Part shown: positions 1 to 34,461 of the stretch, piece by piece
Layout of the letters: every line of letters starts with the position of its first letter
How positions within the stretch are numbered: position 1 is the stretch's first letter
From: an uncultured Roseiflexus sp.
GTDB taxonomy: Bacteria; Chloroflexota; Chloroflexia; Chloroflexales; Roseiflexaceae
Length of the DNA: 34,491 nt
Assembly (NCBI GenBank): GCA_937935075.1
Contig: CALGYB010000118.1
Span: 1 to 34,491, forward strand
Direction of reading: 5' to 3'
Notes under the pieces: model-generated
The model's database searches: none
What the model saw: the letters and a program-made list of their open reading frames with translations, nothing else
What the model was told of the DNA's origin: nothing
Position numbers and translations under genes: made by a program

Positions 1-107
1 TCAAAGACGTGGAGCGGCGAACGTTGGCTTCGACAGGCTCAACCGACGTTCGCCGCGAGACGGTCAACACGAGCACGTATTGGACAACATCCAGGTGATC
101 GCTCTAT
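1..107. repeat. palindromic ~135-bp element, copy 1 (cut by window edge)
   Basis: Right part of an interspersed element found four times in this window. The terminal repeat (rc ATAGAGCGATCACC-like) ends near 107. The central hairpin has arms at 14-29 and 41-56 around the 11-nt loop TCGACAGGCTC at 30-40; 14 of 16 positions pair. Relative to the copy at 6686-6820 the arms are in the opposite orientation while the loop has the same plus-strand orientation. The stem carries GCGGCGAACGT/ACGTTCGCCGC where the other copy has GCGGCTGACGT/ACGTCAGCCGC, so both arms have changed together. Confidence 0.85.
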
Positions 108-3800: not shown

Positions 3801-4284
<484 letters not shown>

Positions 4285-5505
4285 TCACACACTTTCGACG
4301 GTGGCAGTCACATCGAGCGCGCTGAGCATTTGCCTGATCTCATCGACGTAGAGCGCATTCATGACGATCACGACCTCAGGCTGATATGAACGCAGAAATG
4401 CCGGCTCGACGACTTGTTGCCCGCTGCCGGCGACATACTTCCCCTGTTTGCGCGGGTTAATATCAACCACATACTCAATTGCGCCCTGGTCATGGAAGAC
4501 ATTCAGAAATGTCACACCCTTCGACCCGGCGCCCCAGACGACCACGCGCCTGCGCTGCTCCGCCAGCGCGCTGAGCCGTGCCCGCCAGTGCGCAACCTTC
4601 GCGCGGTAGTTGTCACCAAATGCAGTCACATCACGCATCATGCAATCAAAATCGAGACGCATTTGCGCCGAGAGTGGTACGCTGCCAGACGCCGGTCGCG
4701 CTTCGATTGCCAGGAACTGACCGCCAAATTCCTCGCGCACATCGAGCGTCTCAAAGCCAGAAGTCTCGAACAGATGCACCAGCGACGCCGGGCTGAAGTA
4801 CGAACAATGCTCGTAGATAATGTCCCAGATGCCCAGATCACGCAGCGTCCAGAGTGCATTGGGCACCTCGAAGTACACAACCGGGCATCGATGATTGCCG
4901 ATCACCCGGCGAAGATCGGCGATGAAAGCGCGGGGATCTTCGATATGTTCGAGCACGTGCCGACACACGATCAGATCAGCGGGTTCGTGAGCATACGCTG
5001 CACCGAAGAAATCCACAACAAAGCGCACATTCGGATCGAGCGCATCGCGCACCGGATCGGGCACAAAACTTTTGTCGAACCCGACGCCACGATTGTCACC
5101 GGCACGACAGATCTGGCGCAGGAAATCACCCTTGCCACAACCAATCTCGACAATATCTTTGCCACGGAGGTTGTAACGCTCGATCAGGCGTTGCGTCAGA
5201 TCGGTTGCATACTGCTGGAAACGCCCGGAAAAGTGGAGTGAATTTTCATACTCCTGCGAATAATCCATAAGAGACGGGTCAAAGGCATAGTTGTACACGT
5301 GACTGCATGTCGGACAATAGCCGAGTGTCATATCGCCTCGTGGCGCAGCCATCGCCGCTTCGCGCGTCTCCCACAGCACATTGCAATAGATCGGCGCCTG
5401 ACGGACTTCCATAAACAGATGCACGCCGTCTGATCGACAGATCGGGCAGGAGTGCGTATTGGCCGCCTGTTGAGCACGAAGTTGCAGTGTTCTTGTGTCT
5501 TTCAT
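4285..5505 (-). CDS. zinc-domain class I SAM C-methyltransferase (TylC3-like), paralogue 1
   Basis: 406 aa. The N-terminal zinc-binding module has two CxxC pairs (Cys20/Cys23 and Cys64/Cys67). The SAM-binding motif I 'IVEIGCGKGDF' is at 119-127, the family motif 'YEHCSYFS' with the probable catalytic Tyr231-Glu232-His233 follows, and a C-terminal Rossmann-like domain begins at 'VVVWGAGSKGVTF'. This three-part layout is that of sugar C-methyltransferases (TylC3/TcaB9 group), which methylate C3 of NDP-4-keto sugars; related proteins have other sugar substrates. The ATG overlaps the stop of the upstream glycosyltransferase (ATGA), so the two are translationally coupled. It is the last gene of the polysaccharide locus and is the same length as the methyltransferase at 9597-10817, suggesting an old duplication. 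The exact sugar is unknown. Confidence 0.88.
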   Translation of the reverse strand: MKDTRTLQLRAQQAANTHSCPICRSDGVHLFMEVRQAPIYCNVLWETREAAMAAPRGDMTLGYCPTCSHVYNYAFDPSLMDYSQEYENSLHFSGRFQQYATDLTQRLIERYNLRGKDIVEIGCGKGDFLRQICRAGDNRGVGFDKSFVPDPVRDALDPNVRFVVDFFGAAYAHEPADLIVCRHVLEHIEDPRAFIADLRRVIGNHRCPVVYFEVPNALWTLRDLGIWDIIYEHCSYFSPASLVHLFETSGFETLDVREEFGGQFLAIEARPASGSVPLSAQMRLDFDCMMRDVTAFGDNYRAKVAHWRARLSALAEQRRRVVVWGAGSKGVTFLNVFHDQGAIEYVVDINPRKQGKYVAGSGQQVVEPAFLRSYQPEVVIVMNALYVDEIRQMLSALDVTATVESV

Positions 5506-6662
5506 CGTTTACCTGTCAAAACGTTATGAGATGAGAGGGAATCCTCTGTAATACCGAAGAATGCCTCTCTCATGATTGCAACCAGCATATGCGCGTGATG
5601 AGCGGGATTGAACTTTTGAAGAATATCCTGATACGCACATTCAATCATACGCTCAACATCCGGCTTGTGCGCAGGATCGAGCGCCCAGTGCAGCGCTTCG
5701 ACGTAACTCTCAGGCGTCCCACACACCACCAGCCCATTCTCCCCATGACGCACATAGTCGCGCACACCCAGCGCATCATTGACGATCACCAGCTTCCGAA
5801 GCGCCATTGCATTCAGATAGGTCTGTTGACCACTGGCGCGGTATGTGCCCGTGCGCAGCGGTACGACGACCAGCGCGGCGCCGCGTAGCAATCGCGCATA
5901 TTCATCGGTTGGGACCTGCCCTGCACGCACGTTTGGCGGAAGGTTCGGATAATCGCTCAGTTTGCGTGTGGCGAACACGAATGTATGTTCCGGCATCATT
6001 CGCGCCGCTTCCACCAGTGGCGCATAGTTGCGAAATGAATTGCCGCCAGCGAAAATGTACGTTCCTGTCTCAACACATCCCTGCATATCCTTTTCGGTCA
6101 GCGAATACGTGAAAGGAACAAAGCGCACCTTTGCTTCATCGACGCCCCAGACCAGCGAGAAGAAGCGGCGCTCATCGTTGGAGAGCAACGCATAACGACT
6201 GATCACCCGGTCGGCAAAACGCACAATAATGCGGTCGAGCACAGCGCGCCATCCGGTGTTGGGTTCCCACGCCTCGCCGCAAAAAACGATGGTCGGTCGC
6301 CAGCGATGCGGCAGAAAACTCAAGAGAAACACCGCCAACACTTCGGGTTTGAACCGTCCGCGTCCGGTAAACAACAGCAGTCCTTCATATTTCGTCGCCG
6401 CCTGCAACACGCCTTTCAGCAGCGCAATCTCACCCCACAGATCATAGCCGGTCTCATATCTCCACGGCGGCATGGGAACTTTCTCGAATACCGCTGCAAA
6501 TTCTGGAACACCCATCAGGTAATCCAGGGTTGTCGCCCATTGAGGACTTATCCGAAAACTCGCCGCGTGAAGCGCGGCCAGGGAGGCGAAGGCGCTGCCT
6601 CTGACCGCCCAATTGACTTTTTCAGATGCGCTCGCAGCGCGCTGTAGGATATGAAGAGCCAT
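5502..6662 (-). CDS. glycosyltransferase, GT4-like
   Basis: 386 aa. The C-terminal half has a GT-B Rossmann fold with 'GTYIFAGGNSFRNYAPL', 'HTFVFATRK' and a nucleotide-sugar-site region 'GQQTYLNAMALRKLVIV...GVRDYVRHGENGLVV', as in GT4 enzymes. The N-terminal half contains 'PTIVFCGEAWEPNTGWR', an acceptor-side loop. The first ~45 residues are less protein-like than the rest and lie close to a repeat, so the true start could be an internal ATG near 6515; the ATG at 6662 is kept because it has GGAG upstream. It overlaps the following methyltransferase by four bases. It probably adds one sugar of the repeat unit at the cytoplasmic face of the membrane. Confidence 0.82.
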   Translation of the reverse strand: MALHILQRAASASEKVNWAVRGSAFASLAALHAASFRISPQWATTLDYLMGVPEFAAVFEKVPMPPWRYETGYDLWGEIALLKGVLQAATKYEGLLLFTGRGRFKPEVLAVFLLSFLPHRWRPTIVFCGEAWEPNTGWRAVLDRIIVRFADRVISRYALLSNDERRFFSLVWGVDEAKVRFVPFTYSLTEKDMQGCVETGTYIFAGGNSFRNYAPLVEAARMMPEHTFVFATRKLSDYPNLPPNVRAGQVPTDEYARLLRGAALVVVPLRTGTYRASGQQTYLNAMALRKLVIVNDALGVRDYVRHGENGLVVCGTPESYVEALHWALDPAHKPDVERMIECAYQDILQKFNPAHHAHMLVAIMREAFFGITEDSLSSHNVLTGKR

Positions 6663-6685
6663 TGAGGACTACTCTCCTGCTTCTG

Positions 6686-6820
6686 ATAGAGCGAACAACC
6701 AGATGTTGCCCAATACTTGCCCATGTTGACCATCGTGCGGCTGACGTTGGCTTCGACAGGCTCAGCCAACGTCAGCCGCTCCACGTCCTTGATGGTCCAG
6801 GTTTCGGTTGATCGCTCTAT
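6686..6820. repeat. palindromic ~135-bp element, copy 2 (best-preserved hairpin)
   Basis: Complete copy bounded by imperfect terminal inverted repeats (ATAGAGCGAACAACC at the left, GGTTGATCGCTCTAT at the right). The centre is a perfect 16-bp stem, GCGGCTGACGTTGGCT at 6737-6752 with its complement at 6764-6779, around loop TCGACAGGCTC. The arms outside the stem are conserved with the other copies ('TTGCCCAATACTTGCCC', 'CCACGTCCTTGATGGT'). It contains no open frame of note. It sits between two genes of the polysaccharide locus, so the operon transcript would carry this hairpin. Confidence 0.9.
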
Positions 6821-6892
6821 GAGACGTGCAGCGCCAGGCGTTACAGAGAGTCCAAACGTAATGTCGAGAACATAATACACCTTCTCTGCGTT

Positions 6893-9535
6893 CTACGGGG
6901 TCGTCACCAGCGGCAACCAGAGAGTGGAAAGGGATGCGCCAACCCCGGACGTTGCGCTCGGCGTCGCTGTGGAGGTTGCGCTCGGCGTGGCGCTTGGCGT
7001 GGCGCTCGGCGTCGCCGTCGGCGTGGCGCTTGGCGTCGCCGTCGGCGTGGCGCTTGGCGTCGCCGTCGGCGTGGCGCTCGGCGTCGCCGTCGGCGTGGCG
7101 CTTGGCGTCGCCGTCGGCGTGGCGCTCGGCGACCCTGCGCCGCCGAGCGGTTGCACAGTGATGTTGCCAAAACTGGCATCGACGTGGTGCGCCACCAGCA
7201 GCAGCGACCCGCGTGCCAGCGGCTGCTCCCCCGCCGGCGCAACCCCCTCCACCGTCCATCCCGCCGGTTCCGCCTCACTCGCGCGCCACACCTTCAGCCT
7301 GTACCGCTGCGCGCCCCCTGCCTCCGTCGCCACGCGCGCCTTGAACAGATACGTCTCCCCCATCCGCAGCCGCATCCCGCTCACGTCGCGTGCAAACACC
7401 GTCGCCGCCCCCGTGTCCAGATGCAGGTGCATCACCCGCTGCGGCGAACTCGCGTTTGGGTAGCGCTCCAGCCGGTACCATGCCAGCGCGCCAAGCGGGT
7501 AGTACACCCAGCGTGGCTGCGTCTCCCATCCCGCCGGCGCGTCCCAGTGCCCTTGCCACCGCAACAGCACCCCCACCCCCGGTCCCCCGCTGTTCGGCCG
7601 CTGCCCGCGATACATGTCGATTTCATGAATCGTCACCGCCACCGTCGCCTCGTAGTCCGTCCACGTCTCGTTTCCAATCGCCAACAGCCGGTCGTACCCC
7701 GTTGCCGCCGGGCGCACACTCCCCTCCTCCAACACCCACAACCCGTCCACCGCCTGCGCCGCGTCTCCCACGCGCTCCACCGTCCCCCAGTCAATCGCAT
7801 CCGGCAACGGCCACGTCGCGCCGGGAGTGTACCGCACCGTCACCGTCTGCACGCTCGTGTTCCCCAGCCGGTCCGCCGCCGTGATTTCCAACGTGTTCTC
7901 TCCGGCGTTCAACTCCGCCCGGTCCAGCTCGATGTTGAACTCCCCCGTCACGTACACCCGTCGCCAGTTCAACAAAGGATTCGTGTAACTCCCCGGTCCC
8001 AGCATCAGCGACCGCTCCGCCCCGCCGTTCAAGCGGTAGCGCAGCGGCCACGCCGCCGTGCCGAAATTGGCGATGGTCGTCTCGAACCCGTCGGCGTCAT
8101 ACACCCGCCCCAGCACATTCACCCACCGCTGCGGGTTGCCGCGCTGCCCGAACTGCTGCACCGCCCCGCCCCACACGTCGATCACCGGATTGCTCCCCAC
8201 TGCCGTCGGCAGCGTCCGCACCACTCCGCTGCACCTGCTCTGCCGTCCGCTCCCATCGGTCACTGTCAAGCGGTACCAGTAACTCGTCGCCACCGCCAGC
8301 CCGCTCACCGTGAAGGCGTGCGTCTGCCCCAGCCCGCTCGTCAGCGTCCCCCCTGCCGCCGTGCGCGACCCGTAGCGCAACTCCGCCGTCGTCGCTTCGT
8401 CGCTGTACCCCGTCACCGCCAGCGTCGTCCCACTCAGCGTATGCGGCGGGCACGCCAGCAGCGGCGCGTGCTGATCGGGAAACGCCTGCGGGTCGTCGAG
8501 CAGCGGCGCGCTCGCCACGTGAAAGTAATCCACTGCCGCCGTAAACGGCTGCGCATACCGTCCGCTCGCCTCGGCGTTCCCCGCAAACACCCCCACGCTC
8601 GTCAGGCTTAGCGTTACCGTCGCATTTGCAAACGTCGTCCAATTCACGCCATCGAACGAGTAACGAAACTGCCAACTCGTCCCACTGCGCGTCATCCGCA
8701 GCCATACCGGGTGCCCTGGCGCACTTAGCGCACTGTTATTGAAGGTGGTAGCGCTTGCTCCGCTCACCAATCCGGCGAACAGCCACACCTGCTCCTCCCC
8801 GGCGCTATTCCGCCGGCTCGAAATATTGAAACGCACATACGTCGCATCGTCCGCCTGCGCGATCAGCCCTTGCAACGCCATATGTCCGCTCACCCGCGAG
8901 TTGAACTTCGCCATCACGTCGAAGTCGGCGTCTGGCGCCGCCTGCAACAGGCGCACCGCCGTGTTGCCGCTCGTCCACGGCTCGTGCGGCGGACCGTCGG
9001 GCACGATCAGGCGAATGTCCGTGCCGGTCAACTCATACGCCGCGTCGCCGCGCGGATTGACGAACGTCCAGGGACCCAGCCCGCCGGTGCGGTTGAAGTC
9101 GTCGGAAACGAGCGGACCGGAGGCGGGCGGCATCAGGGACGCCGGAGCGCCGAGCGCCGGCGCAGGCGTCGGGGTGGCCGCAGCGGTGGTAAAGGTCTGC
9201 GGCGGCGAAAAGGCGTTGCTCCCGTCGGCGCGATAGGCGGCGACCCAGAAGCGATAGGTCGTCGCGGGAACGAGGTCGGGGAGCAGTGCGGTATGGGCCG
9301 TCCCATCGCCGGCGGCGGGGACGCTTTCCGTCCAGGAACCGTCGGCGGGACCATAGAAGACCGCGCCGCCGGCGGGGAGCGAGGTCGTCCAGCGGATGGC
9401 AGCACTGCCGGTATTGACCGTCACCTGCACATCGGTGATAGTCAGCGCCGCCGGACCGGGCGTCGGATCGGCGGCGAATGCGCTGCCGAGCGCCAATGCG
9501 GTCAGCGTGAGCAGAATGATGACGGTAAAGCGCAT
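6893..9535 (-). CDS. large secreted FnIII / concanavalin-like multidomain protein
   Basis: 880 aa with a clear signal peptide ('VIILLTLTALALGSAFA', cleavage near 21). Domains in order: fibronectin type III (about 29-118), a short Pro/Ala/Thr linker, a ConA-like/GH43-C2-like beta-sandwich starting 'DDFNRTGGLGPW' (about 142-345), a second FnIII (about 365-445), an Ig-like domain with 'NTLEITAADRLGNTSVQTV' (about 450-570), a second ConA-like sandwich (about 575-768), a Thr/Pro repeat (ATPTATPS units) and the tail 'LWLPLVTTP'. No catalytic motif is visible; the domains suggest carbohydrate binding at the cell surface. Its position inside the polysaccharide locus suggests it binds or organises the exported polymer. 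The Shine-Dalgarno is weak. The C-terminal repeat is encoded by a 24-bp tandem array. Confidence 0.85.
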   Translation of the reverse strand: MRFTVIILLTLTALALGSAFAADPTPGPAALTITDVQVTVNTGSAAIRWTTSLPAGGAVFYGPADGSWTESVPAAGDGTAHTALLPDLVPATTYRFWVAAYRADGSNAFSPPQTFTTAAATPTPAPALGAPASLMPPASGPLVSDDFNRTGGLGPWTFVNPRGDAAYELTGTDIRLIVPDGPPHEPWTSGNTAVRLLQAAPDADFDVMAKFNSRVSGHMALQGLIAQADDATYVRFNISSRRNSAGEEQVWLFAGLVSGASATTFNNSALSAPGHPVWLRMTRSGTSWQFRYSFDGVNWTTFANATVTLSLTSVGVFAGNAEASGRYAQPFTAAVDYFHVASAPLLDDPQAFPDQHAPLLACPPHTLSGTTLAVTGYSDEATTAELRYGSRTAAGGTLTSGLGQTHAFTVSGLAVATSYWYRLTVTDGSGRQSRCSGVVRTLPTAVGSNPVIDVWGGAVQQFGQRGNPQRWVNVLGRVYDADGFETTIANFGTAAWPLRYRLNGGAERSLMLGPGSYTNPLLNWRRVYVTGEFNIELDRAELNAGENTLEITAADRLGNTSVQTVTVRYTPGATWPLPDAIDWGTVERVGDAAQAVDGLWVLEEGSVRPAATGYDRLLAIGNETWTDYEATVAVTIHEIDMYRGQRPNSGGPGVGVLLRWQGHWDAPAGWETQPRWVYYPLGALAWYRLERYPNASSPQRVMHLHLDTGAATVFARDVSGMRLRMGETYLFKARVATEAGGAQRYRLKVWRASEAEPAGWTVEGVAPAGEQPLARGSLLLVAHHVDASFGNITVQPLGGAGSPSATPTATPSATPTATPSATPTATPSATPTATPSATPTATPSATPSATPSATSTATPSATSGVGASLSTLWLPLVTTP
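6981..7130 (-). repeat. in-frame tandem repeat encoding ATPTATPS units
   Basis: About five near-identical 24-bp units (7009-7129; plus strand CTTGGCGTCGCCGTCGGCG followed by TGGCG) and a more degenerate 12-bp stretch at 6981-7008. Each 24-bp unit encodes eight residues, so gain or loss of units keeps the reading frame and only changes linker length before the C-terminal tail. Confidence 0.9.
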
Positions 9536-15005: not shown

Positions 15006-15156
15006 AGCATTATCACCTCGACCATCACCTCATCATCCCAGCAGACGTCTGAACAGTGCAGCCCATAACCTGATCGTTCTCATCGCTGAAAACCGTTTGT
15101 GTATGACCCAGAACCAGAGTTCTCAGGCGTGGCATCGTTCGAAGGTCTACCAAAAT

Positions 15157-15265
15157 AAGGCTTAACCACAAAGGACACGAAGCGCACGAAGGTTTAATAA
15201 AATGAAGAGCATTTTCTTTGTGTCTCTTTGTGACCTTCGCGTTTAACAGATTTTTGCAGTGAATT
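15157..15265. repeat. dispersed repeat, CCACGAAGG family, copy A
   Basis: Starts 'AAGGCTTAACCACAAAGGAC' and ends in 'TTTTTGCAGTGAATTC'. It is the diverged relative of the two copies at 34232-34461, with imperfect terminal inverted repeats around the core 'GACACAAAGG'. Sequences of this kind are scattered in many bacterial genomes; no coding function is seen. Confidence 0.75.
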
Positions 15266-21960: not shown

Positions 21961-22105
21961 CGGTATGCTCCTTACGTTTGTTCCAGGTACGTGTCACGCT
22001 GCGCCGGATTGTTATGCCAGGGCATTGGACGCAACCCCAATCACGCTGATGACAGCCTGTACTAAGCGCCTATCCGAATAATTGCGACTGAAGTGCGCCC
22101 GGATA

Positions 22106-22126
22106 GGCGAAGGCATTACCTTCGCC
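22106..22126. repeat. short palindrome related to the one at 3883-3915
   Basis: GGCGAAGG-CATTA-CCTTCGCC, a perfect 8-bp stem with a five-base loop. The core matches the 16-bp-stem palindrome at 3883-3915. It lies in the 357-base gap between the Wzx and propeller-protein genes, next to copy 3 of the ~135-bp element. Confidence 0.6.
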
Positions 22127-22156
22127 CGCCTGACGATCTGTTCCGGATAGACTCCT

Positions 22157-22290
22157 GTAGAGCGATCAATCAGATGTTGCCCAATACTTGCCCGTGTTGA
22201 CCGCCTTGCGCAGCTTTGGCTTCGACAGGCTCAGCCGACGTCAGACGCTCCACGTCCTTGATGGTTCAGGTTTTGGGTAATCGCGCTATA
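22157..22290. repeat. palindromic ~135-bp element, copy 3 (degraded hairpin)
   Basis: Same orientation as copy 2, with terminal repeats 'TAGAGCGATCAAT' and 'TAATCGCGCTATA' and the shared arm 'CAGATGTTGCCCAATACTTG'. The centre keeps GGCTTCGACAGGCTCAGCC, but the left stem arm has substitutions and a deletion, so the hairpin is weaker. It fills most of the gap between the flippase and propeller-protein genes; the rest of that gap (21961-22105 and 22291-22317) shows no gene. Confidence 0.85.
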
Positions 22291-33410: not shown

Positions 33411-33546
33411 ATCGAGCAATCAACCAAAACCTGGACCATCAAAGACGCAGAGCGGCTGACGTTGGCTTCGACCGGCTCAGCCAACATCAGCCACACGACG
33501 GTCAACACGGGCCAATGATCGTGCAATATCGGGTTGATCGCTCTAT
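33411..33546. repeat. palindromic ~135-bp element, copy 4
   Basis: Complete copy in the orientation opposite to copies 2 and 3, with ends 'ATCGAGCAATCAACC' and 'GGGTTGATCGCTCTAT'. Stem arms at 33452-33467 and 33479-33494 pair at 14 of 16 positions around loop TCGACCGGCTC. The arms match the reverse complement of copy 2, but the loop has copy 2's plus-strand orientation. Confidence 0.88.
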
Positions 33547-34231: not shown

Positions 34232-34344
34232 CTTCACTGCAAAAAGCTGTAACCACGAAGATCGCAAAGGGACACAAAGGAAATGGACTTCTCACCTTCG
34301 TGCGCTTCGTGTTCTTGGTGGTTAAGCCTTTGTGCAGTGGACTC
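34232..34344. repeat. dispersed repeat, CCACGAAGG family, copy B
   Basis: 'ACTGCAAAAAGCTGTAACCA' at the left and 'GGTGGTTAAGCCTTTGTGCA' at the right form imperfect terminal inverted repeats of about 35-40 bases. The inner sequence 'GGGACACAAAGGAAATG' is shared with copy C. It lies upstream of the auracyanin gene. Confidence 0.8.
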
Positions 34345-34363
34345 AGATTATGGTTTGGGTACG

Positions 34364-34461
34364 GGAGTAACCACGAAGGTCACAAAGGGACACAAAGGAA
34401 ATGCGCTTCCACCCTCGTGCGCTTCGTGTCCTTTGTGGTTAAGCCTTTTTGCAGTGGACTC
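34364..34461. repeat. dispersed repeat, CCACGAAGG family, copy C
   Basis: Direct tandem partner of copy B in the same orientation, about 20 bases later, ending in 'AAGCCTTTTTGCAGTGGACT'. The left terminal part is shorter than in copy B. Nothing gene-like is seen between here and the window end. Confidence 0.8.

Follow-up and report, generated by a model that had tools for sequence, protein, structure and literature searches.

Bacterial MITEs of the IS5/IS1031 type are short, gene-less, and bounded by terminal inverted repeats (TIRs), occur in many intergenic copies, and carry a TNA duplication at CTNAG; the element described here resembles them in all of these respects. Duplication of TNA at a YTNAR-like target is the signature of IS5-family elements of the IS1031 type. 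Correia elements are Neisseria MITEs that are likewise dispersed and of similar size, and their ends may resemble the ends seen here; they duplicate TA, where the present element duplicates TNA. Inversion of Correia elements has been reported (PMC10969869). REPs and REPINs with RAYT share other traits with our element, namely, a short palindrome, hundreds of copies, patchiness between species, and both tandem and opposed arrangements. Among the small dispersed repeats of cyanobacteria, a repeat of about 24 nt, reportedly described by Elhai in 2008, acts as a mobile unit and inserts into other repeats. Off-array insertion of spacer-sized pieces with duplication of a repeat-sized target is said to have been described in 2018 by Nivala as neo-CRISPR; known ectopic spacer integration has mainly been induced in E. 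coli or has taken place within arrays. In A. variabilis, T. roseum, and H. neapolitanus, REPs lie nested in longer palindromes (Di Nocera 2013, PMC3733652), so that one palindromic repeat contains another, smaller one, as is seen here.

We analyzed a stretch of DNA of 34,491 nt (the window), which is the entire contig C118 of a 4.85-Mb Roseiflexus genome (G000) in 220 contigs, and sampled the sequence of this genome in stretches that come to 1.79 Mb (37% of the genome). The element found there rather likely comprises three layers: a MITE shell, a REP-like hairpin core with a flipping loop, and spacer-like scars. A MITE with a REP-like hairpin joins known kinds of element, and the finding is in that measure explained; frequent natural spacer-like insertions at hairpins are the added, surprising result.

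All four palindromic copies previously noted in the window are present, as are their shared TIR-like ends, which occur at 7 places in the window against 0.87 expected by chance. Copy 2 is an intact 133-bp element of the family that we call A (TAGAGCG...CGCTCTA). Once the 3-bp target duplication is counted, its bounds are 6687 to 6819 on the plus strand, with TGA on each side (6684 to 6686 and 6820 to 6822). The central hairpin of this copy has its left stem arm at 6737 to 6752, the 11-nt loop TCGACAGGCTC, which is the core of the REP-like repeat, at 6753 to 6763, and its right stem arm at 6764 to 6779, all on the plus strand; folded as single-stranded DNA, the copy reaches −36.5 kcal/mol (z = −6.5), and folding is weaker for copies 1, 3, and 4 (z = −3.8, −1.3, and −1.8). 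Copy 1 (1 to 106, minus strand; loop at 30 to 40) is truncated by the contig start, has its short arm on the left side, and is followed on its right by TGA at 107 to 109. Copy 3 (22158 to 22288, plus strand; loop at 22222 to 22232) is diverged, and its target duplication is now inexact. Copy 4 (33412 to 33545, minus strand; loop at 33468 to 33478) is flanked by TTA and TTG. All belong to family A. The loop is the same in copies 1 to 3 and has one change in copy 4 (TCGACCGGCTC), the arms of copies 1 and 4 are inverted relative to the loop, and the stem change between copy 2 (CTG/CAG) and copy 1 (CGA/TCG) is real and affects both arms. No Rfam family was found in the window. Where the sequence-only reading fell far short was in its count of four copies: at up to 2 mismatches, the genome holds 467 sites for the loop motif GCTTCGACAGGCTCAGC and 220 for the TIR ATAGAGCGATCAACC (2 and 3, respectively, for the reversed-pattern controls), and the TIR sites correspond to about 110 elements. 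Among named genomes, an exact loop and end pattern was found only in a Roseiflexus MAG and a Chloroflexota MAG.

Other repeats are also present in the window. Adjoining copy 2, positions 6538 to 6672 hold a repeat between 12-bp direct repeats (CCATTGAGGACT) that congeners lack. A further repeat, in which CTTCGTG...GTGGTTAAGCC is frequent, is present in tandem and inverted copies at 34249 to 34461 and 15145 to 15245, and a 12-bp tandem repeat (GGCGTGGCGCTC-like) at 6926 to 7155 lies within an 880-amino-acid open reading frame (6893 to 9535).

The shell is a 133-bp element with terminal inverted repeats at both ends (TAGAGCGATCAACC...GGTTGATCGCTCTA). In the 64 copies with both ends recognizable, the sequence across the two junctions runs C-T-N, A|TAG...CTA|T, N-A-G. 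Across left/right flank position pairs (n = 225), the N pair is the only one whose members agree much more often than chance would allow (62% versus 25%; z = 6.8), and an exact TNA repeat is retained in 32 of the 64 copies. This pattern indicates insertion at CTNAG with duplication of TNA; a TA duplication of the IS630 type disagrees with the flanks, and TNA alone fits. Copy 2 is missing from the orthologous spacer of congeners, and in this genome that spacer has another repeat alongside. Family A copies are intergenic in 35 of 36 cases, in sequence that is 86% coding. A second family, B, has ends TAGGAAGATCAACC, a length of about 118 bp, TNA repeats, and the same core as family A; hybrids with one family A end and one family B end occur, and family B is also found in a genome from another family of the order (G066). 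Heptamer tracts of the form (AGTTCTC)n serve as family A insertion targets (G000:C30:51150-51390, C133:24591, and C60:13754). No match to the element was found in plasmid and phage collections, and a search of published text did not turn up the hairpin sequence. The shell is thus almost certainly a MITE, as the sequence-only reading of a non-autonomous, MITE-like element had it, with the TNA target duplication in its flanks bearing this out. We take that duplication at CTNAG to place the shell in the IS5/IS1031-type group, and a MITE shell of IS5 type is accordingly likely.

Two kinds of mover had been proposed for the element, a REP-associated enzyme (RAYT/Y1) and a DDE transposase. Of these, the TNA duplication favors a DDE enzyme, and the shell would be moved in trans by such a transposase, most likely of the IS5/IS1031 type; this attribution draws on the insertion signature. 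A transposase gene lying between the same ends had been suggested as a check. At 104 plus 55 TIR sites that were read, no transposase with matching ends was found; at 11 of these sites the 200 or 250 bp inward of the end hold neither a core nor a transposon, and sampled TIR sites without a core resemble relics. Loci carrying PF01609 that were checked as a partner have ends that differ from those of the MITE. The genome does contain an IS5-type IS, considered as the partner and rejected on account of its ends (GAGCCTGTTATGCACTTC), which do not match. Two places at which an autonomous element was considered, C41:47520 and C102:10037, belong to another repeat family and hold no transposon.

The other half of that proposal is not supported. 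If this were a REP/BIME system moved by RAYT (TnpA-REP), the hairpin would be the mobile unit and the arms would be passive. Consistent with that idea, the core is REP-like, abundant, and patchy, and in relatives some of its copies form oppositely oriented pairs; a Y1 protein of the genome comes close to the RAYT model (72 bits; cut-off, 80), and RAYT hits are somewhat more numerous in hairpin-rich genomes at one of three thresholds (P = 0.04). Against it, the 30 RAYT loci tested have no core closer than about 1.5 kb, copy number is not correlated with RAYT strength in a set of 82 genomes (Spearman rho = 0.13; P = 0.25), and one genome with 599 copies has only weak RAYT-model hits. No GTAG or GTGG tag is conserved 5′ of the hairpin in the contexts read, and the shell carries a TNA duplication, which Y1 enzymes are not known to produce. 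Another RAYT-model hit with a lower score (C115:725-1147; 48 bits), outside the 30 loci tested, lies near IS remnants with core inserts, a proximity that we count as coincidence. We therefore rejected RAYT as the best reading of the mover, given the absence of flanking cores at the 30 loci and of a correlation with copy number, and consider it very unlikely.

Within a separate REP-like repeat, the 11-nt loop is what is conserved; this repeat is found outside the MITE as well, including as an insert of 23 to 24 nt within an IS gene. One core is common to the centers of families A and B and is also found solitary and as tandem copies with a spacing of 19 or 25 bp. Its distribution across 82 genomes of the order is patchy (0 to 599 copies). 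Of 400 genomes sampled from the phylum, 99 contain the exact 15-mer CTTCGACARGCTCAG, for which the reversed control gave hardly any hits. The IS5-type IS with ends GAGCCTGTTATGCACTTC gives a view of the core in another setting: some copies are empty, and others carry a core insert at two positions, of 23 nt (TTCGACAGGCTCAGGCGCCGCGC) at one site and 24 nt (GCTTCGGCAGGCTCAGCGCATCGC) at the other (copies with and without inserts are at L117:4210-4440, L085:1-660, and L088:1-400). These empty and filled sites suggest that the core is able to move into new sites as a discrete piece of about 24 nt, deletion being the less likely alternative. Copies of this IS also have inserted poly-C/poly-G palindromes, and several contigs end in the IS.

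The inverted arms of copies 1 and 4 are part of a general pattern. When hairpins are sorted by orientation, the loop points one way relative to the family A arms in 52 of 107 and the other way in 55; one copy (on C209) has two opposite loops 19 bp apart. On an arm tree of 52 copies, which is poorly resolved, at least 13 changes of loop direction are needed, compared with 17.6 for shuffled directions (a number as low came up in 8 of 500 shuffles). Loop direction is weakly inherited, slightly clustered on the tree, and has switched repeatedly; because of this clustering, the flips are not fast. Covariation of the 16-bp stem likewise holds in the large set, with 29 double-sided pair changes against 8.4 ± 2.2 in shuffled data (0 of 500 as high).

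From the covariation it had been concluded that the hairpin itself is maintained. The covariation is confirmed, but the conclusion of selection need not follow, since template switching gives covarying stems and flipped loops without selection. When the template switches from one arm of an inverted repeat to the other, the arms are homogenized and the spacer is inverted (PMC8604942, PMC8794818), so that a single DNA-level process can explain both flips and covariation. In the core, the loop would invert while the arms stay complementary, most likely through switches of the replication template from one stem arm to the other, and we hold this mechanism, which the pattern of flips suggests, to be moderately likely. 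Template switching often leaves multi-base blocks; multi-base compensatory blocks, considered as proof of it, were not seen here, and the compensated pairs are mostly single, which leaves room for selection on the hairpin. Under such selection the hairpin would be an RNA or DNA element (a terminator, an mRNA stabilizer, or a protein site), the covariation would reflect purifying selection, and the flips would be neutral. The significant covariation of the stem and the intergenic placement noted above fit that explanation. It is nevertheless improbable: the loop is conserved while stem sequences vary between contexts and lies on either strand at about equal frequency, no Rfam family marks the window, and only 6 of 35 copies lie between convergent genes, no excess over the 20% share of such spacers, for which reason a terminator role was rejected. 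Covariation by itself is no proof of a functional RNA. With template switching as the preferred reading, the 107 hairpins with a flipping loop and covarying stem form a large natural set for measuring this process in bacteria.

A third feature, absent from the sequence-only reading, is a class of CRISPR-like scars. Fifteen of the 64 family A copies are at least 180 bp long, and 12 of these 15 contain a duplication of 23 to 39 bp, mostly 36 to 39 bp, around a unique filler of 32 to 53 bp (offset, 69 to 79). A scan of the 1.79 Mb for direct duplications with filler gave a sharp peak at an offset of 72 to 80, where, with protein repeats left out, 48 pairs were counted against 6.3 expected (P = 3 × 10−26). 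In 35 clean events, the median duplication is 37 bp (quartiles, 35 to 39) and the median filler is 38 bp (35 to 41); a few events are weak or lie within protein repeats. Sixteen of 44 events overlap core sites, which make up 2 to 3% of the sequence (P = 6 × 10−13, a value that ignores that the sequence was partly picked for holding the element), compared with 5 of 66 background duplication pairs, and many scar ends fall inside or beside the loop. Unique sequence and a different palindrome (GGGTAGGCGAAGGC...) hold further events. Two loci (C152:12217 and C207:8865) have apparently two fillers and three repeats, and most fillers have no second copy in the sampled 37% of the genome. The dispersed palindrome GGGTAGGCGAAGGC...GCCTTCGCCTACCC is present in the window at 3880 to 3914, at 22101 to 22135, and near 6580 to 6605, and it takes spacer-sized insertions elsewhere in the genome.

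Similar events are found in other genomes. In a congener of another species (G010:C59; L240:1427-1538), a glycosyltransferase-like gene is interrupted, out of frame, by an unrelated 36-bp insert between exact 38-bp duplications; its ortholog at 5502 to 6662 of the window is continuous, as it is in G012 and G013, which provides a precise empty site. The same hairpin has single cases of 38/34 in G013 and 36/34 in G066.

Cas1-Cas2 inserts a spacer-sized piece and duplicates a repeat-sized target, and no other enzyme known to us sets both of these lengths. The scar geometry matches CRISPR repeat and spacer lengths. CRISPR repeats are often palindromic, and an integrase that recognizes palindromes would account for the enrichment at hairpins. 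The hairpin is a preferred landing site for short unique inserts (about 38 bp), with about 37 bp of the target duplicated, and ectopic Cas1-Cas2 spacer integration would most likely turn it into a mini-CRISPR with one or two spacers. On the strength of the geometry, we conclude that the scars are probably ectopic Cas1-Cas2 integrations.

Error-prone repair of broken hairpins, by end joining with templated filler and no Cas1-Cas2, would be another source of duplications with filler. Palindromes are known breakage sites, and scar ends often lie in or beside the loop, a possible cut site of a hairpin nuclease. Repair would not, however, keep the duplication near 37 and at once the filler near 38, the peak at 72 to 80 is sharp, events also occur in unique sequence and in the protein gene of another species, and most fillers are single-copy in the sampled sequence; we consider this origin unlikely.

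Searches for a CRISPR context gave the following. A 37-nt repeat at C62:23899 (L265:12999-13035) matches Rfam CRISPR-DR10 (47.5 bits; threshold, 39); it is solitary, with a degenerate copy 39 nt before it and a WYL-domain gene adjoining. The start of contig C11 (L286:1-130) has a 37/36/37 CRISPR-like unit upstream of acetyl-CoA synthetase-like genes. The open reading frames checked beside these two repeats include no cas genes. One of six fillers tested against viruses has a match (20 to 21 nt of 35, with ends not matching), two reversed controls had none, and searches of fillers against plasmid and phage collections gave no useful match.

If Cas1-Cas2 integration is the right reading of the scars, this genome is a natural record of off-target adaptation machinery and a ready data set on Cas1-Cas2 recognition outside arrays, and there would be a direct link between palindromic mobile repeats and the way in which CRISPR arrays arise. 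More tentatively, and with slightly more doubt than belief, we propose that dispersed hairpins (REP-like cores, MITE centers, and another palindrome) may be natural Cas1-Cas2 entry points, with this lineage continually seeding one- or two-spacer mini-CRISPR arrays throughout its chromosome, on the order of a hundred per genome; mobile palindromes would in that case be a source of new CRISPR arrays.

Set beside the known systems, the element departs from each of them. IS5/IS1031-type MITEs are the closest match for the shell, but here a separate REP-like hairpin, with its loop either way, sits at the center, and the sites sampled include no transposase with matching ends. In contrast to Correia elements, the loop alone inverts and TNA is duplicated. 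The nested REPs, in the part of the report considered here (PMC3733652), come without the TNA duplication, loop flips, and spacer-like inserts seen in our element. Unlike REPs and REPINs, the core has no GTAG tag and no flanking RAYT gene, and it is the loop, not the stem, that is conserved. From cyanobacterial small dispersed repeats it differs in both sequence and host. In comparison with neo-CRISPR, the insertions described here are natural, amount to tens of events in 1.8 Mb, and are enriched at dispersed hairpins.
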